From the NCBI RefSeq assembly GCF_001645125.1, contig NZ_LXKA01000287.1, forward strand, positions 16,878 through 80,877: a stretch of DNA of 64,000 bases, written 5' to 3'. The notes under the pieces were generated by a model. That model searched no databases, was not told where the DNA came from, and saw only the letters and a list, made by a program, of their open reading frames with translations. Below are positions 11,525 to 33,408 of the stretch, piece after piece. Positions within the stretch are counted from its first letter, which is position 1. The number at the start of each line of letters is the position of its first letter. This DNA comes from Paraburkholderia ginsengiterrae. GTDB taxonomy: Bacteria; Pseudomonadota; Gammaproteobacteria; Burkholderiales; Burkholderiaceae. The translations under genes and the position numbers were made by a program.

Positions 11525-12418
11525 TCAGAGCGCCACGCCTTCGTCGCCGATCAGCTTTTCGAGCAGCCAGATCAGCGCGAAGTCGATCGCGACAATGAAA
11601 ACGGCGAAACAGAACACGGTCGGATCGAGCGACGACACCGTGCGGCTGTAGAGCCATACCGGCAGCGTCATCGTGTCGATGCTGTAGAGAAAGAAGGTCA
11701 CCGTGAACTCGTTGAACGAGACGATGAACGCGAACAGCATGCCGGCCAGAATGCCGGGGCGCATGAGCGGCAGGATCACGTCGACGAGCGCGCGGCCTGG
11801 ACTTGCACCCATCACACACGCGGCTTCCTCGAACTCCGGACCGATCGAGGCGACCGACGCCGCGCAGTTCTTCACGGTAAACGGCAACGCCAGAATCACG
11901 TGCGCGATGATCAGGCGGAACACGCCGAGTTCGACCGGCAGCACGTTGAACACCAGCAGCAGCGACAAGCCGAGCATGACGAGCGGGTAGACGAGCGGCA
12001 ACGCCACCAGTTGTTCGACCGCCGGCTTGCCACGGAAGCGGTAGCGGCTGAGCGCATAGGCGGCGGGCACCGAGACGAGCGTGGCAATCACCATGGTGGA
12101 GAGCGCAACAATCAGACTCGTGCTCAATGCGGCGCCCATCGAGAGCGTGTCGCTTGCGTCCGGTGAGACGAAGCTGTGCCACGCGGCGCGATACCAGTGA
12201 AGGCCGTACGCGTGCGGCGGAAATTCGAGCGTGTCGGCCGCGCTGAACGACATGGTGATCATCGTCAGGATCGGCAGCGCGGCGAGGAACAACACGACCG
12301 CCGCGAGCAGCGCGGTGGCCTTGCCGAGCTGGCCCGGCATCGTGACCGGCCAGCGTTGCGGCGAGGACGAGCGGGGCGGCCGCGACGGCAGGCGCGAGGT
12401 TTGAATGGGCGTACTCAT
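11525..12418 (-). CDS. PotC-like ABC transporter permease
   Basis: 297 aa with about six membrane segments and a binding-protein-dependent permease loop (EEAACVMGASPGRALVDVILP). Its ATG overlaps the stop of the preceding permease by ATGA (12415-12418). It is the second inner-membrane subunit of a spermidine/putrescine-type importer. The N-terminal 30 residues are Ser/Pro/Arg-rich and probably cytoplasmic. Confidence 0.92.
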   Translation of the reverse strand: MSTPIQTSRLPSRPPRSSSPQRWPVTMPGQLGKATALLAAVVLFLAALPILTMITMSFSAADTLEFPPHAYGLHWYRAAWHSFVSPDASDTLSMGAALSTSLIVALSTMVIATLVSVPAAYALSRYRFRGKPAVEQLVALPLVYPLVMLGLSLLLVFNVLPVELGVFRLIIAHVILALPFTVKNCAASVASIGPEFEEAACVMGASPGRALVDVILPLMRPGILAGMLFAFIVSFNEFTVTFFLYSIDTMTLPVWLYSRTVSSLDPTVFCFAVFIVAIDFALIWLLEKLIGDEGVAL

Positions 12419-26714: not shown

Positions 26715-28989
<2,275 letters not shown>

Positions 28990-29016: not shown

Positions 29017-29841
29017 TCAGCCCGGAGCCGCCCCCGTCAACTGCGCATACACGTCGTGCGACAGTTGCAGCAACTGAGCCCGTTCGATCCCGCCTGACAC
29101 CGCATAGCCGAAGTCGCCGTCGATCCAGTAGAACACGTTCACCGGCCCGTCCTGATACAGCTTGAACGCGGTCGTGTTGGCGTTCTGCTTGCGGCGCGAG
29201 ATGCACAGCGTGACGCGTTCGCCGTTCGGTCCGCGATACATGAACTGCGCGGTTGGGCCGTCGGCGCCGGGCAGCAGGCGTCCGCCTGACAGAGCAAAGC
29301 CGCTCTTCGAAAGAATCGGCGGATGAACGTTGGTGCCGAGCCGGTTCGAGAGCCACTGCACGAAATCCTGCTCGTGATCGGCGCGCATACCGGCCGGCCG
29401 GTCAATGGCGGGCATGTAGACCACATGCGCCACCGCCGCCTGGTGCGCGAACATTTCGGTGCTGTCCGCACTGACGGGGCGCGTGGCGGAGTGACTGTCC
29501 GCGGCGGGCGCAATCACGTCCTGTCCCATATGCGTGCCGACGCCAATGCCCACGCCCAGCACCAACGCCGCCGCCATTCCCGCGAACTGCGGCCAGTTCG
29601 CGGCCATGCGCCAGCGGCGCGGCGCGGGCGCCAGCAGGCGCTTGGGCACGGGCTCGCTCAACACGCGGTCGTAGCGCTCGTGGAACATGCTGTTCAGCGA
29701 AAAATAATCGCTGATGCGCGCGGCAAGTTCGGGATTCTGTTCGAGTGCCCGCTCCACATCCGCACGGCGTGCGTCGGACAGCGTGCCGTCCACGTACGCG
29801 TGCAGTTCTTCTTCGCCGATCGGCAAGTGTTGGTCGCTCAT
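29017..29841 (-). CDS. membrane anti-sigma factor
   Basis: 274 aa. The N-terminal sigma-binding region (EEELHAYVDGTLSDARRADVERAL, about 9-33) has the pattern of anti-sigma factors in the RskA/RsrA-like group without the zinc motif. One membrane segment (about 83-105) leads to a periplasmic domain with the pattern RPAGMRADHEQDFVQWLSNRLG. Its ATG overlaps the sigma gene stop (ATGA), so the two are co-translated. It should hold the ECF sigma factor inactive until an envelope or oxidative signal arrives. Confidence 0.88.
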   Translation of the reverse strand: MSDQHLPIGEEELHAYVDGTLSDARRADVERALEQNPELAARISDYFSLNSMFHERYDRVLSEPVPKRLLAPAPRRWRMAANWPQFAGMAAALVLGVGIGVGTHMGQDVIAPAADSHSATRPVSADSTEMFAHQAAVAHVVYMPAIDRPAGMRADHEQDFVQWLSNRLGTNVHPPILSKSGFALSGGRLLPGADGPTAQFMYRGPNGERVTLCISRRKQNANTTAFKLYQDGPVNVFYWIDGDFGYAVSGGIERAQLLQLSHDVYAQLTGAAPG

Positions 29842-30356
29842 CGCACCACCTTTAATTTTGCGCCGGGCTGCGAGCCCGCCATCAATGCCCGAAGCCGCTC
29901 GCGTCCCCGCGACAGGCGCGACATCACCGTGCCGATCGGAATGTTCAGCGCGAGCGCCACGTCGGCATAGCTCATTTCCTCGAGACCCACCAGCAGCACG
30001 ACCTCACGCTGTTCCATGGGCAGGCGCTGCAACGCGTAGTCGAGATCGCGCATTTCCAGCGAGCGGGTCTGCGCGGGCGGCACGGCGAATTCGCTTTCGT
30101 GCACGCTGTCGTCGTCGACCGCCACGTGAATCGCGCGTGCCGAGGCCTTGCGCGCCTGATTGGCAAACACGTTGTGCATGATCGTAAACAGCCACGCGCG
30201 CAGGTCGGTGCCGGGCTGGAACATGCCGGTGCGCCCGAGTGCGCGTTCGAGCGTGTCCTGCACGAGGTCGTCGGCGAGGTCGCGATTGTTGATCAGCGCG
30301 CGGGCATAGCGCCGCAGACGCGGCACGTGCTCCATCAGATCGTCACGGACATCCAT
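29838..30356 (-). CDS. ECF-family RNA polymerase sigma factor
   Basis: 172 aa with regions 2 and 4 only. Region 2 lies about 10-78 (LADDLVQDTLERAL then ARKASA), region 4 about 105-160 (LPMEQREVVLLVGLEEMSYADVALALNIPIGTVMSRLSRGRERL). It is the central gene of the stress module, between two anti-sigma-like genes. Upstream at 30436-30461 lies a copy of the motif repeated before the other units of this module, so it probably activates its own gene. Confidence 0.95.
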   Translation of the reverse strand: MDVRDDLMEHVPRLRRYARALINNRDLADDLVQDTLERALGRTGMFQPGTDLRAWLFTIMHNVFANQARKASARAIHVAVDDDSVHESEFAVPPAQTRSLEMRDLDYALQRLPMEQREVVLLVGLEEMSYADVALALNIPIGTVMSRLSRGRERLRALMAGSQPGAKLKVVR

Positions 30357-30435: not shown

Positions 30436-30461
30436 AAACACGCGTAGCTGCATTTTATTCC
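30436..30461 (-). promoter_or_regulatory. predicted ECF promoter of the sigma factor gene
   Basis: On the minus strand GGAATAAA (30461-30454) is followed after 12 bases by GTGTTT (30441-30436). The same spaced motif occurs at three other upstream positions in this module. It lies about 80 bases before the sigma ATG. Confidence 0.65.
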
Positions 30462-30497
30462 CGTGGCTCGCATCAGATCGTGAAATACCGGCGCGGA

Positions 30498-31235
30498 TCA
30501 GCGCGTGGTCAGGGAGTCGGCCGCGCGCATCAGGCCGTGGGCGCGGGCGTCGCCGGCCACCACGAAGCGCTTCAGGCGCGCGCTCCAGAACAGCAGACGA
30601 ATATCGCCGATACGGCGGGCGTACCACTGCGGCTGCGCCCGCCCCCATTGCGCCCCCGCCGAAAGCAGCCCCACCGTCTCGTTGTCCCCGTTCATGTAGA
30701 CAAATTCGTCGATGCGCTGAAGCGGGCCGGGCGACAGCATTTTCCGGTCCACGAGGCGCAGTCCGATCGACGCGAGATTCGGCGCGTCCAGGTCGGCCCG
30801 CGTCGGCGAAGCGGCGGAAAATCCCGCGGCGGCGGTCTCGGCCAGCGCCATGACGGCGGCGTTGTTGAGCGACTGGGCGGACACCTGGGCGGTTGCCAGC
30901 CAGCCGCTTGCCACTGCCAGCGTCAGGGCGAGCGCGGCCAGCGTGTTGACGAGCTTGCGGGTGCGCCGCGTGGCGCCGATCCGGCCGAACGTGCCGCGCC
31001 ATGCACCGGCGCGGCCTGGCGCGGGTTCGTCGGTGGTTTGAAAGGCGGCCTGGACCTGCGCGTTCAGCCTGCCGTAGAACGCCACCCGGCGCGCCTCCGC
31101 CGGATCCTTGCTCAGATACGCGCGCAGAAACTCCGCGCGCTCGGGCATCAGCGTGCCGTCGGCGTAGGCCTGGATGTCAGCTTCGGAAATCGGCGAATCG
31201 GATGGGGTGTCGGTGGTCATGGCGTCGGCTTGCAT
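30498..31235 (-). CDS. second anti-sigma-like membrane protein
   Basis: About 245 aa. An N-terminal segment SEADIQAYADGTLMPERAEFLRAYL parallels the sigma-binding region of the 29017-29841 product; one membrane segment lies about 85-110. The periplasmic part (about 115-240) resembles its counterpart loosely, including a late RRIGDIRLLFWSARLKRFVVAG strand pair. The start is uncertain: ATG 31235 has a GGACA site and lies just after the predicted ECF promoter; ATG 31220 is also possible. ATG 31265 would be inside the promoter. The presence of two such proteins around one sigma factor is unusual. Confidence 0.8.
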   Translation of the reverse strand: MQADAMTTDTPSDSPISEADIQAYADGTLMPERAEFLRAYLSKDPAEARRVAFYGRLNAQVQAAFQTTDEPAPGRAGAWRGTFGRIGATRRTRKLVNTLAALALTLAVASGWLATAQVSAQSLNNAAVMALAETAAAGFSAASPTRADLDAPNLASIGLRLVDRKMLSPGPLQRIDEFVYMNGDNETVGLLSAGAQWGRAQPQWYARRIGDIRLLFWSARLKRFVVAGDARAHGLMRAADSLTTR

Positions 31236-31257
31236 CGGTTGTCCGCTATCGATGTGC

Positions 31258-31283
31258 GAACACACTCAGAGCTCGTTTATTCC
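31258..31283 (-). promoter_or_regulatory. predicted ECF promoter of the second anti-sigma-like gene
   Basis: On the minus strand GGAATAAA (31283-31276) is followed after 12 bases by GTGTTC (31263-31258). Expected transcription start is about 31250, which excludes a start codon at 31265 and fits 31235 or 31220. Confidence 0.65.
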
Positions 31284-31319
31284 CGCTTTCGACTATGTTT
31301 TTGCCGTGGCGCCGACGCA

Positions 31320-31346
31320 GGAATAAAAGCCGCGAACCCGTGGTTC
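31320..31346 (+). promoter_or_regulatory. predicted ECF promoter of the DUF4148 gene
   Basis: GGAATAAA (31320-31327), then 12 bases, then GTGGTTC (31340-31346), 40 bases before the DUF4148 ATG. With the element at 31276-31283 it forms a divergent pair with arms TTTATTCC and GGAATAAA. Confidence 0.6.
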
Positions 31347-31386
31347 TCCCTCATGCAAACCCGCACAAAACTCGCTGGAGTTCTTC

Positions 31387-31656
31387 ATGAAGAAAGTGGC
31401 TATTTCCGCATTGTCCGTCGTGGCGCTCTTTACGTTTGGCGTTTCTTCGAGCGCTTTTGCAGAGGGCAAGACGCGTGCTGAGGTGTACCAGGAATTGATT
31501 CAGGCTGAGCAGAACGGCTTGAATTACGTCACCGATACCTCGTACCCGGATGTCAATCCGATCTTCGCGCAGCAGGTCGCGCAGCACAAGGAAGCGCTCG
31601 CCGCCGAAGCACGGATGGATCACGTCGCGAGCGCGCCGGCGGTCAGCGCCAAGTGA
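31387..31656 (+). CDS. DUF4148 periplasmic protein (copy 2)
   Basis: 89 aa. A signal peptide (1-25, ending AFA) is followed by the DUF4148 core KTRAEVYQELIQAEQNGLNYV and a helical tail. A GGAG site precedes the ATG. It lies between the divergent anti-sigma gene and the peroxidase gene and is preceded by the shared ECF-type motif. This suggests that it belongs to the same stress regulon. Molecular function is unknown. Confidence 0.88.
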   Translation: MKKVAISALSVVALFTFGVSSSAFAEGKTRAEVYQELIQAEQNGLNYVTDTSYPDVNPIFAQQVAQHKEALAAEARMDHVASAPAVSAK

Positions 31657-31706
31657 GGGCCGCGATAACCGGCGCGCCAGGGGAACGGGTGCGCCGGTTA
31701 TCGGAT

Positions 31707-31732
31707 GGAATAGATCGGCGATTGATGTGTTC
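31707..31732 (+). promoter_or_regulatory. predicted ECF promoter of the peroxidase-cytochrome b561 operon
   Basis: GGAATAGA (31707-31714), 12 bases, then GTGTTC (31727-31732); the downstream half is identical to that of the 31258-31283 element. It lies about 50 bases before the peroxidase start codon. Confidence 0.6.
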
Positions 31733-31780: not shown

Positions 31781-32872
31781 GTGACCCAACCACCCGTTCC
31801 CCACGCCGCGCCGGTCTGCGTGCCATGCAGACTCGCCGCGATCGGCGCGGCCGTGCTGGCGCTCGCCGGCGGCTTTGCCTACACGGCAGGCTGGCTGACA
31901 CCCGCGCGCCTTACTGCGCCGCGCATCATCGACACGTTCCAGACGGTAGCCGGTCAGCCGCATCCGGGCTACCGGCGCAACCATGCCAAGGGGCTGTGCA
32001 TCGAGGGATATTTCGACAGCAACGGCGCGGGCGCGGCCGTTTCGCGTGCGCTGGTATTCGCGCCCGGCCGCACGCCGGTCACGGGCCGGTTTGCGGTGCC
32101 CGGCGGCAACCCGTCCGCGCCGGATACCAGCACGCCGGTGCGCAGCATGGCGTTGTTGTTCCAGTTGCCCGACGGCGAACAATGGCGCACGGGGATGAAT
32201 TCGGCCCCCGTTTTCGCGGTGCATACCCCGGAGCAGTTTTATCAGCAACTGGTCGCCGCCAAACCCGATCCGGCGACCGGCAAACCGGACCCCGCCAAAC
32301 TCAAGGCGTTTTACGCCGCGAATCCCGAAACCCGGCCGTTCCAGACCTGGGTGAAGGCGCACCCGCCGTCCTCGAGTCTGGCGAATGCCGCGTACTACGG
32401 CATCAACGCGTTCCGCTTTACGGATGCCTCCGGCTCGACGCGCGCGGTGCGCTGGGCGATGGTGCCCGAGACACCTTATGCACCGGTCACCGACGCGGAA
32501 AAGGCCGAAAAGAATTTTCTCGCGGCCGACCTCGATCAGCGCCTGCAAAACGGACCGCTGCGCTGGCATCTGATCCTGACCGTCGCGCAGGCTGGCGACC
32601 CGACCGGCGACGCCACCTTGCAATGGCCCGCCGACCGGCAGCAAATCGACGCGGGCACGCTGGTGATAGAACGCACGACGTCGCAGGAAGACGGCGCCTG
32701 CCGCGACGTCAACTTTGATCCAACGATCCTGCCGGCAGGCATCCGGCCCTCGGACGATCCATTGCTTGCGGCGCGCTCGGCCGCCTATGCACAGTCGTAT
32801 CAGCGCCGCACGCGTGAGGAAGCGCTGCATCCCGCGATTCATCAAGTCCCGTCGACCGGAGATCATTCATGA
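31781..32872 (+). CDS. catalase-related peroxidase (SrpA family)
   Basis: 363 aa from GTG 31781, chosen because AGGAG sits 5 nt before it; the longer reading from 31550 overlaps DUF4148 and is rejected. An N-terminal hydrophobic helix (about 20-38) acts as an exported anchor. The catalase fold follows: the distal-site region KGLCIEGYF-like, then the family segments FAVPGGNPSAPDTSTPVRSM and AYYGINAFRF. It is much shorter than true catalases, as usual for the family, which reduces organic peroxides in the periplasm. The haem donor is likely the cytochrome b561 encoded next (ATGA overlap). Confidence 0.9.
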   Translation: MTQPPVPHAAPVCVPCRLAAIGAAVLALAGGFAYTAGWLTPARLTAPRIIDTFQTVAGQPHPGYRRNHAKGLCIEGYFDSNGAGAAVSRALVFAPGRTPVTGRFAVPGGNPSAPDTSTPVRSMALLFQLPDGEQWRTGMNSAPVFAVHTPEQFYQQLVAAKPDPATGKPDPAKLKAFYAANPETRPFQTWVKAHPPSSSLANAAYYGINAFRFTDASGSTRAVRWAMVPETPYAPVTDAEKAEKNFLAADLDQRLQNGPLRWHLILTVAQAGDPTGDATLQWPADRQQIDAGTLVIERTTSQEDGACRDVNFDPTILPAGIRPSDDPLLAARSAAYAQSYQRRTREEALHPAIHQVPSTGDHS

Positions 32873-33408
32873 CGCCGACGCGTACCCATTTCAGTCCGCT
32901 CGCGCGTCTGCTGCATTGGACGATGGCGCCGCTCATCATCGCGATGCTGTTTATCGGCGTGGGGATGGTGGCGACCGTCTCGCGCGCGCACGACACGCTG
33001 ATTGCGATTCACCGCCCGCTTGGCATTGCACTGCTGCTGTTGGTGCTGCTGCGTGCGGGCGTGCGCCTCACACGCAGCAGCCCGCCGTTGCCTGCGGATA
33101 TGTCCGCGCCGCAGCGCAGGGTGGCCAAGGCCTCGCACCTCGTGCTGTATGCGTTGATGGCGGCGATGCCGTTGATCGGCTGGGGCATGCTGTCTGCAGC
33201 GGGCTATCCGGTCACGCTATACGGTCCGCTGCATTTGCCGCCGATCGCGCCGCATGATGTCCGTCTGTTCGCGCTGCTGCGCGCGTTGCATACGTGGCTC
33301 GCGTTCGCCTTGTTCGCGACGGTCCTGCTGCATCTCGCGGCGGCGCTGTTTCACGGGCTGATCCGCCGCGACGGCGTGTTCTCCAGCATGGCGCGCGGCG
33401 GACGTTAG
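32869..33408 (+). CDS. cytochrome b561
   Basis: 179 aa with four membrane helices and histidines at the helix ends (ARLLHWTMAPL near 14; AIHRPLGIALLLL near 46; ALHTWLAFALFATVLLHLAAALFHGL near 140-165), which bind two b haems. It should deliver electrons from the quinone pool to the periplasmic peroxidase, whose gene it overlaps by ATGA. Confidence 0.92.
   Translation: MTPTRTHFSPLARLLHWTMAPLIIAMLFIGVGMVATVSRAHDTLIAIHRPLGIALLLLVLLRAGVRLTRSSPPLPADMSAPQRRVAKASHLVLYALMAAMPLIGWGMLSAAGYPVTLYGPLHLPPIAPHDVRLFALLRALHTWLAFALFATVLLHLAAALFHGLIRRDGVFSSMARGGR

Follow-up and report, generated by a model that had tools for sequence, protein, structure and literature searches.

The question raised by this locus is whether a short motif, repeated four times within 1.3 kb and each time ahead of a gene, marks the promoters of the sigma factor encoded among the copies. 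The locus lies in a stretch of 64,000 nucleotides of Paraburkholderia ginsengiterrae DNA (contig NZ_LXKA01000287.1, positions 16,878 to 80,877), which is referred to as a whole as the window. We regard it as highly probable that the four motifs are promoters of a central extracytoplasmic function (ECF) sigma factor of the ECF26 type, which would drive its own gene, two anti-sigma genes, the gene of a small DUF4148 protein and a pair of genes encoding a catalase-family protein and a cytochrome b561.

The four copies combine a -35 element, GGAATA, with a -10 element starting with GTT. P1 (30434..30461, minus strand, GGAATA-N16-GTTTGC) is located ahead of the genes for sigma and anti-sigma 1, P2 (31256..31283, minus, GGAATA-N16-GTTCGC) ahead of anti-sigma 2, P3 (31320..31348, plus, GGAATA-N17-GTTCTC) ahead of the DUF4148 gene and P4 (31707..31734, plus, GGAATA-N16-GTTCGC) ahead of the catalase-b561 pair. 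GGAATA and GTT are thus 16 bases apart in three of the copies (P1, P2 and P4) and 17 apart in P3. A first-pass annotation had placed all four copies correctly, by position and by strand, and each is indeed aimed at the next gene: the first base of GGAATA lies 105 bases from the start codon of sigma, 67 from that of DUF4148, 74 from that of the catalase gene (GTG 31781) and, if translation starts at ATG 31235, 48 from that of anti-sigma 2, whose open reading frame opens at GTG 31265, within P2. The same annotation had taken a GTG at identical spacing as the downstream half. The spacing to GTG holds within the window; relatives keep GTT, not GTG, so GTG was rejected as part of the -10 element.

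In the originally proposed form, GGAATARA-N12-GTG, the motif is found four times in the window; 100 shuffles that preserve dinucleotides gave a mean of 0.00. Of the nine matches in the complete assembly (8,533,041 bases in 393 contigs), four fall in this 1.3 kb segment; the reversed pattern has one match. When the rate of the other five genomic matches is used as background, the probability of finding four copies in 1.3 kb is about 1e-14. The clustering is therefore real and well above chance. The genome scan for placement bias that had been proposed gave the expected picture, with few matches, clustered at this locus and near a second sigma factor gene, the product of which is 84% identical to that of the window.

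To evaluate conservation of the motif, relatives of the sigma factor were sought in 150 genomes sampled from the family. Among the matches listed, 43 outside its own genome reach at least 60% identity to it; 40 of their loci, from 39 genomes, were fetched and scanned for GGAATA followed by GTT at 16 or 17 bases, within 350 bases upstream of genes and on the coding strand. A copy was detected upstream of sigma in 30 of 40 loci, of anti-sigma 2 in 27 of 27, of DUF4148 in 12 of 17 and of the catalase gene in 10 of 13. Overall, 104 copies were found in 423 kb of relative loci, 86 of which could be assigned to these four genes; reversed sequences gave none. These copies account for 104 of the 181 occurrences of GGAATA in the relative loci. 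They are kept ahead of the same four genes though gene order and content vary among relatives. The form GTT[ACT]GC is present in 62 of the 104 copies, the -10 element being most often GTTYGC, and the 17-base spacer seen in P3 recurs in all 12 DUF4148 copies. Within the lineage of the window sigma, the nearest upstream copy of sigma carries GTT in 40 of 42 rows and GTC in none, while two loci (L040 and L078) have no copy. In four close relatives (L043, position 6725; L044, 6664; L045, 4018; L046, 3968) an extra copy is located ahead of anti-sigma 2, facing the DUF4148 copy, where the window has a single one.

Uniformly spaced repeats ahead of several genes could also suit the operators of a transcription factor. 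We consider this very improbable, since the copies are bipartite, asymmetric and directional, and sit 48-105 bases ahead of start codons, like mapped ECF26 promoters; moreover, their spacer varies by one base and the -10 half differs between two catalase-linked sigma lineages, the second of which is described below.

The sigma gene itself (29838..30356, minus; 172 aa) encodes a protein with Pfam domains Sigma70_r2 and Sigma70_r4. The product is 43.3% identical, over 90% of the query, to RpoE6 of Sinorhizobium meliloti, which was recognized in the pSymA record because three of the four published rpoE6-region promoter sequences are located there. Mapped promoters of the S. meliloti ECF26 factors RpoE1, RpoE4 and RpoE6 contain GGAATA with GTC or GTT, and the cross-species ECF26 consensus is GGAATA at -35 and GT at -10 (PMC6180224). 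Another report gives GGAAT at -35 and CGTC at -10, with a spacing varying by one base (PMC6527743). The window exhibits putative promoters of the -35 GGAATA, -10 GT kind, kinship with a known ECF26 member (one reference, RpoE6) and a downstream anti-sigma gene whose predicted product has an N-terminal anti-sigma domain, a transmembrane helix and a periplasmic domain, the transmembrane part being modelled with low confidence. A tree was built from 57 sequences, RpoE6 and 56 of the 109 collected sigmas. The window lineage is a single group in it (91/78), while RpoE6 has a long branch and clusters with a neighbouring group. The GTC-promoter lineage linked to catalase is separate from the window lineage. 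Autoactivation is not universal among ECF26 factors, as RpoE3 does not activate its own promoter (PMC6180224).

Other assignments were considered. A PhyR_sigma2 hit in Pfam had suggested a general stress sigma of the ECF15 / EcfG type, whose promoters have a GGAAC-type -35 element; the -35 element here, GGAATA, does not support this. In S. meliloti, RpoE5 uses a GGAAC-type -35 element (PMC6180224). No NepR or PhyR partner scored above cut-off among nine neighbouring genes; a weak, short NepR match occurs in 12 of 20 anti-sigma 1 proteins (window residues 57-70; best E 0.0057). PSPTO_1043 of Pseudomonas syringae, of the RpoE/ChrR type with motif TGATCC-N16-CGTA (PMC5507510), and EcfQ/EcfF of Bradyrhizobium japonicum, where EcfQ belongs to class 33 and the available text lacks the string 'GGAAT' (PMC3420878), were discarded as models. 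The terms sought were absent from Rhodius 2013 (PMC3817407), and the accessible parts of PMC10880074, PMC8103513, PMC11139773 and PMC5749847 held nothing decisive for the circuit. A further ECF26-like lineage (L097-L100, L102-L106 and L041, the third sigma of this genome, on contig C339) shows GGAATA followed after 17 bases by GTT -10 elements, located 285-558 bases ahead of sigma; its motif suggests that paralogous sigmas of a single genome have the -35 element in common and differ downstream of it.

Anti-sigma gene 1 (29017..29841, minus; 274 aa) overlaps the sigma stop codon with its start by four bases and encodes an N-terminal anti-sigma domain, one stretch hydrophobic enough to resemble a transmembrane segment and a periplasmic domain. 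Anti-sigma gene 2 (30498..31235, minus; 245 aa from ATG 31235) likewise codes for a single hydrophobic stretch, and sequence comparison identifies the two genes as diverged paralogues. At an E value of 0.001, anti-sigma 1 has just three matches in this genome, namely itself, anti-sigma 2 and the anti-sigma next to the third sigma (C339); anti-sigma 2 matches only itself and anti-sigma 1. It may be that anti-sigma 2 has lost sigma binding and acts as a separate periplasmic sensor or as a partner of anti-sigma 1, which we consider rather unlikely: its profile match to anti-sigma 1 covers the N-terminal domain as well as the membrane part and the periplasmic domain, and of the 27 loci holding the gene, 25 have it upstream of sigma in the same orientation and two, L075 and L077, have it divergent. 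The predicted periplasmic domains of both proteins resemble the C-terminal domain of RseB/MucB, in fold only, at 9-19% identity. The likeness recalls the sigma-E/AlgU systems; in the window, the anti-sigma includes this domain, as if, according to the models, an RseB/MucB-like sensor had been fused to it. Sequence comparison of anti-sigma 1 with solved structures gave nothing significant, and Pfam searches on 26 anti-sigma 2 proteins returned only weak matches. A two-cysteine or zinc switch within the anti-sigmas is unlikely, because neither of them has a cysteine that is invariant or close to it; C213 of anti-sigma 1 is present in 17 of 20.

The remaining genes of the block lie on the plus strand. 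The DUF4148 protein (31387..31656; 89 aa, PF13663) has a signal-like N-terminus, hydrophobic over residues 1-25. The catalase-family protein (31781..32872) matches PF00199 with 90.3 bits, against a curated cut-off of 25, which places it in the catalase superfamily, with predicted activity; residues 9-36 form a hydrophobic stretch, a putative anchor or signal. Its gene overlaps by four bases that of the cytochrome b561 (32869..33408; PF01292, 103.5 bits), which has four hydrophobic stretches. Lipase-like and lipase chaperone genes adjoin the block (26745-28989), where the exact motif is absent. No protease was found among the window genes scanned with Pfam.

The motif was then followed beyond the locus in a refined form, GGAATAN{16,17}GTTHKC, which has 14 matches in the genome, four at this locus, four within 10 kb on contig C46 and six elsewhere, against five for the reversed pattern. 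In 40 genomes of the genus, its own included, 371 matches were counted, against 90 reversed. The C46 group surrounds the second sigma gene (L040, G000:C46:56000-75500; 11676-12191, minus), along with DUF4148 genes and genes for a solute-binding protein, hydrolases, a beta-propeller protein and a molybdopterin oxidoreductase of the sulfite oxidase family. No recognisable anti-sigma was found beside it on C46, nor a promoter in about 600 bases ahead of it, allowing up to one mismatch in GGAATA and GTT or GTC at 15-18 bases. The six other matches are on C1, C78 (twice), C111, C245 and C361. They are at most candidate promoters, and those on C1 and C111 sit within gcvT-like and AMP-binding open reading frames. 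One C78 match (L089, G000:C78:56021-56049, minus) is located about 60 bases ahead of another cytochrome b561 gene, and matches with a similar spacer are also present in G165 and G175, both of this genus. By these sequence matches, the candidate regulon extends past this locus.

These data bear on a rival explanation, in which a second ECF26-type sigma of the cell, that on C46 with 84% identity, takes part in reading the promoters or is their main reader. This second sigma and that of the window are identical over residues 49-70, a segment that includes region 2.4, and differ little in the region 4 helix-turn-helix, and more motif copies surround the second sigma gene; in S. meliloti, RpoE1 and RpoE4 have common targets (PMC6180224). 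Among the matches listed, however, a second sigma with at least 60% identity occurs in only three of the 39 relative genomes (G009, G047 and G017), yet the motifs of the block are kept, and the copy upstream of the third sigma has a different -10 element, GTTATTT. We think it rather unlikely that the C46 sigma reads these promoters as well, or as their main factor, and favour the sigma factor encoded in the block.

A second ECF26 lineage linked to a catalase gene allowed the -10 element to be compared. Its representative, found in L101, has 43% identity with the window sigma and is divergent to a catalase-b561 pair. A scan of named genomes with it gave at least 151 relatives, and 78 distinct loci were kept among the matches listed, of which 46 have a catalase gene beside sigma, always divergent from it. 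These loci come from Burkholderia, Achromobacter, Bordetella, Luteimonas, Luteibacter, Pseudomonas and Xanthomonas; b561 is present in 45 of them, and GGAATA-N16-GTC precedes both sigma and catalase genes in all 46. The other 32 loci (at most 43% identity) show neither catalase nor motif copies. The 46 catalase loci contain no DUF4148 match, and anti-sigma 2 gave in them only weak matches, on the single anti-sigma gene. In a 6.9 Mb genome of this lineage (G011), the pattern GGAATA-N16-GTCYNAC has two matches, the sigma and catalase promoters, and one when reversed. The nearest upstream copy carries GTC in 47 of 47 sigma rows of the catalase-linked GTC lineage. In region 2.4, the window lineage has M60, H61, N62, N66 and Q67, versus mostly L, Y, R, D and G. 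At sigma and catalase promoters, the -10 triplet thus appears to track the catalase-linked sigma lineage, as a correlation drawn from sequence.

This second lineage includes a factor for which expression data exist. Both published ecfB primers are found in the Burkholderia cenocepacia locus L118, 454 bases apart as in strain J2315, and on this ground its sigma was equated with EcfB (BCAL3478). BCAL3478 and the divergent catalase gene BCAL3477 have highly similar expression (PMC2830190). After 15, 30 and 60 min of exposure to hydrogen peroxide (H2O2), quantitative polymerase chain reaction gave for BCAL3478 a non-significant change, 5.5 and 16.6 fold, and for BCAL3477 1.7, 6.5 and 23.1 fold; microarray values were 3.4 and 2.7, respectively, and most of the H2O2 had disappeared after 15 min (PMC2830190). 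In the same study a b561 gene, BCAL1106, within BCAL1105-BCAL1107, shows the same late rise with H2O2 and is also induced by sodium hypochlorite (NaOCl). As a target of the second lineage it was discarded, there being no third pattern match in the related genome G011.

Taken together, the data suggest the following circuit, in which the -35 GGAATA, -10 GTT promoters would be read by the sigma encoded among them. In the resting cell, anti-sigma 1, encoded by the downstream gene that overlaps that of sigma, would keep sigma at the inner membrane, and its paralogue anti-sigma 2 would probably do so too. Through a signal in the periplasm that acts on the periplasmic domains of the anti-sigmas, sigma would be freed and would transcribe its own operon, anti-sigma 2, the putatively secreted DUF4148 protein and the presumed membrane-anchored catalase with its b561, a cytochrome that could feed electrons to the catalase-family protein. 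As for the signal, our best guess is not H2O2 as such but an effect that oxidative damage has, with delay, on the envelope; by analogy with EcfB, such a delayed envelope signal would fit a membrane anti-sigma. The initial proposal of an ECF sigma regulon is supported by the few, clustered genomic copies, their conservation ahead of four genes, the match to ECF26 promoters and the -10 triplet that differs between the two catalase-linked lineages. It needs correcting in that the -10 element is GTT rather than GTG, anti-sigma 2 is a further target and the regulon probably reaches beyond the locus.

A number of observations weigh against this interpretation. A copy adjoining the gene is missing for sigma in 10 of 40 relatives, for DUF4148 in 5 of 17 and for catalase in 3 of 13. 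In nine of the ten loci without a sigma-adjacent copy, anti-sigma 2 lies upstream and carries its own copy, which suggests a single operon; the tenth, L078, has neither. The copy-less catalase genes lie behind genes of the block on the same strand, anti-sigma 1 in L054 and L056 and DUF4148 in L046, and may be co-transcribed with them; two of the five copy-less DUF4148 genes (L057 and L059) are more than 3 kb away from sigma. In the P. ginsengiterrae genome, 30 of 35 DUF4148 matches were inspected, and copies are directly ahead of three (the window gene and two on C46); one further gene, on C347, has a GTTTAC variant. The -10 element does not match the sigma tree throughout: two sigmas with long branches are exceptions, L115, which has GTT and no catalase found yet groups within the GTC lineage, and L107, which has GTC and groups elsewhere. 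The unrelated structure 1vr8 scores like RseB against the periplasmic domains of the anti-sigmas, and a Foldseek search with anti-sigma 2 had no hit that reached E 0.001. As to the signal, NaOCl had no significant effect on BCAL3478 or BCAL3477, and the authors conclude that BCAL3477 is triggered indirectly and does not directly neutralise exogenous H2O2 (PMC2830190). EcfB belongs to the other lineage, its close homologue in L101 being 43% identical to the window sigma. Finally, RpoE1 and RpoE4 of S. meliloti respond to sulfite.

Compared with known systems, the locus resembles the S. meliloti pairs RpoE1-EcfR1, RpoE4-EcfR4 and RpoE6-EcfR6 in its -35 GGAATA, its GTT or GTC at -10 and its downstream membrane anti-sigma with a periplasmic domain. 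For S. meliloti, the targets described include sulfite oxidation genes, a serine protease and others, and one anti-sigma is described per sigma; in the window, a catalase-b561 pair, DUF4148 and a second anti-sigma gene are found instead. With EcfB/BCAL3477 it shares a sigma gene beside the same catalase family, b561 and GGAATA-type promoters ahead of both; it differs in that EcfB, to which its sigma is about 43% identical, has GTC at -10 and a divergent catalase gene. EcfB has been called PrtI-like, with a linked anti-sigma gene, and PrtI of the Pseudomonas PrtI/PrtR pair has been tied to temperature-dependent proteases (PMC2194791); this likeness is taken from the description. We regard the system as an ECF26-like variant, with catalase-b561 and DUF4148 as putative targets and a second, diverged anti-sigma under the same promoter type. 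No link of catalase-b561 to ECF26, or of DUF4148 to a sigma factor, was found in the literature covered; most subscription papers fell outside the search, and no priority is claimed. A broader and distinctly speculative scheme may be imagined, in which two sigmas, two anti-sigmas and two loci form one ECF26 network. The C46 sigma would be held in trans by the anti-sigma pair of the window, two diverged RseB-like domains would combine two signals of oxidative damage to the envelope ahead of production of a membrane catalase, and the catalase-b561 pair would have been taken over by two separate ECF26 lineages, each with its own -10 element.

If correct, this reading would assign a defined and testable regulon to one ECF26 lineage within the Burkholderia family. 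It would also lead one to expect that envelope signals govern catalase-b561 pairs of the cell envelope. Two ECF26 lineages associated with the same enzyme pair, one with GTT and one with GTC, may serve as a natural experiment on the choice of the -10 element, and a duplicated anti-sigma under the promoter type of its own sigma would represent a simple, doubled negative feedback.
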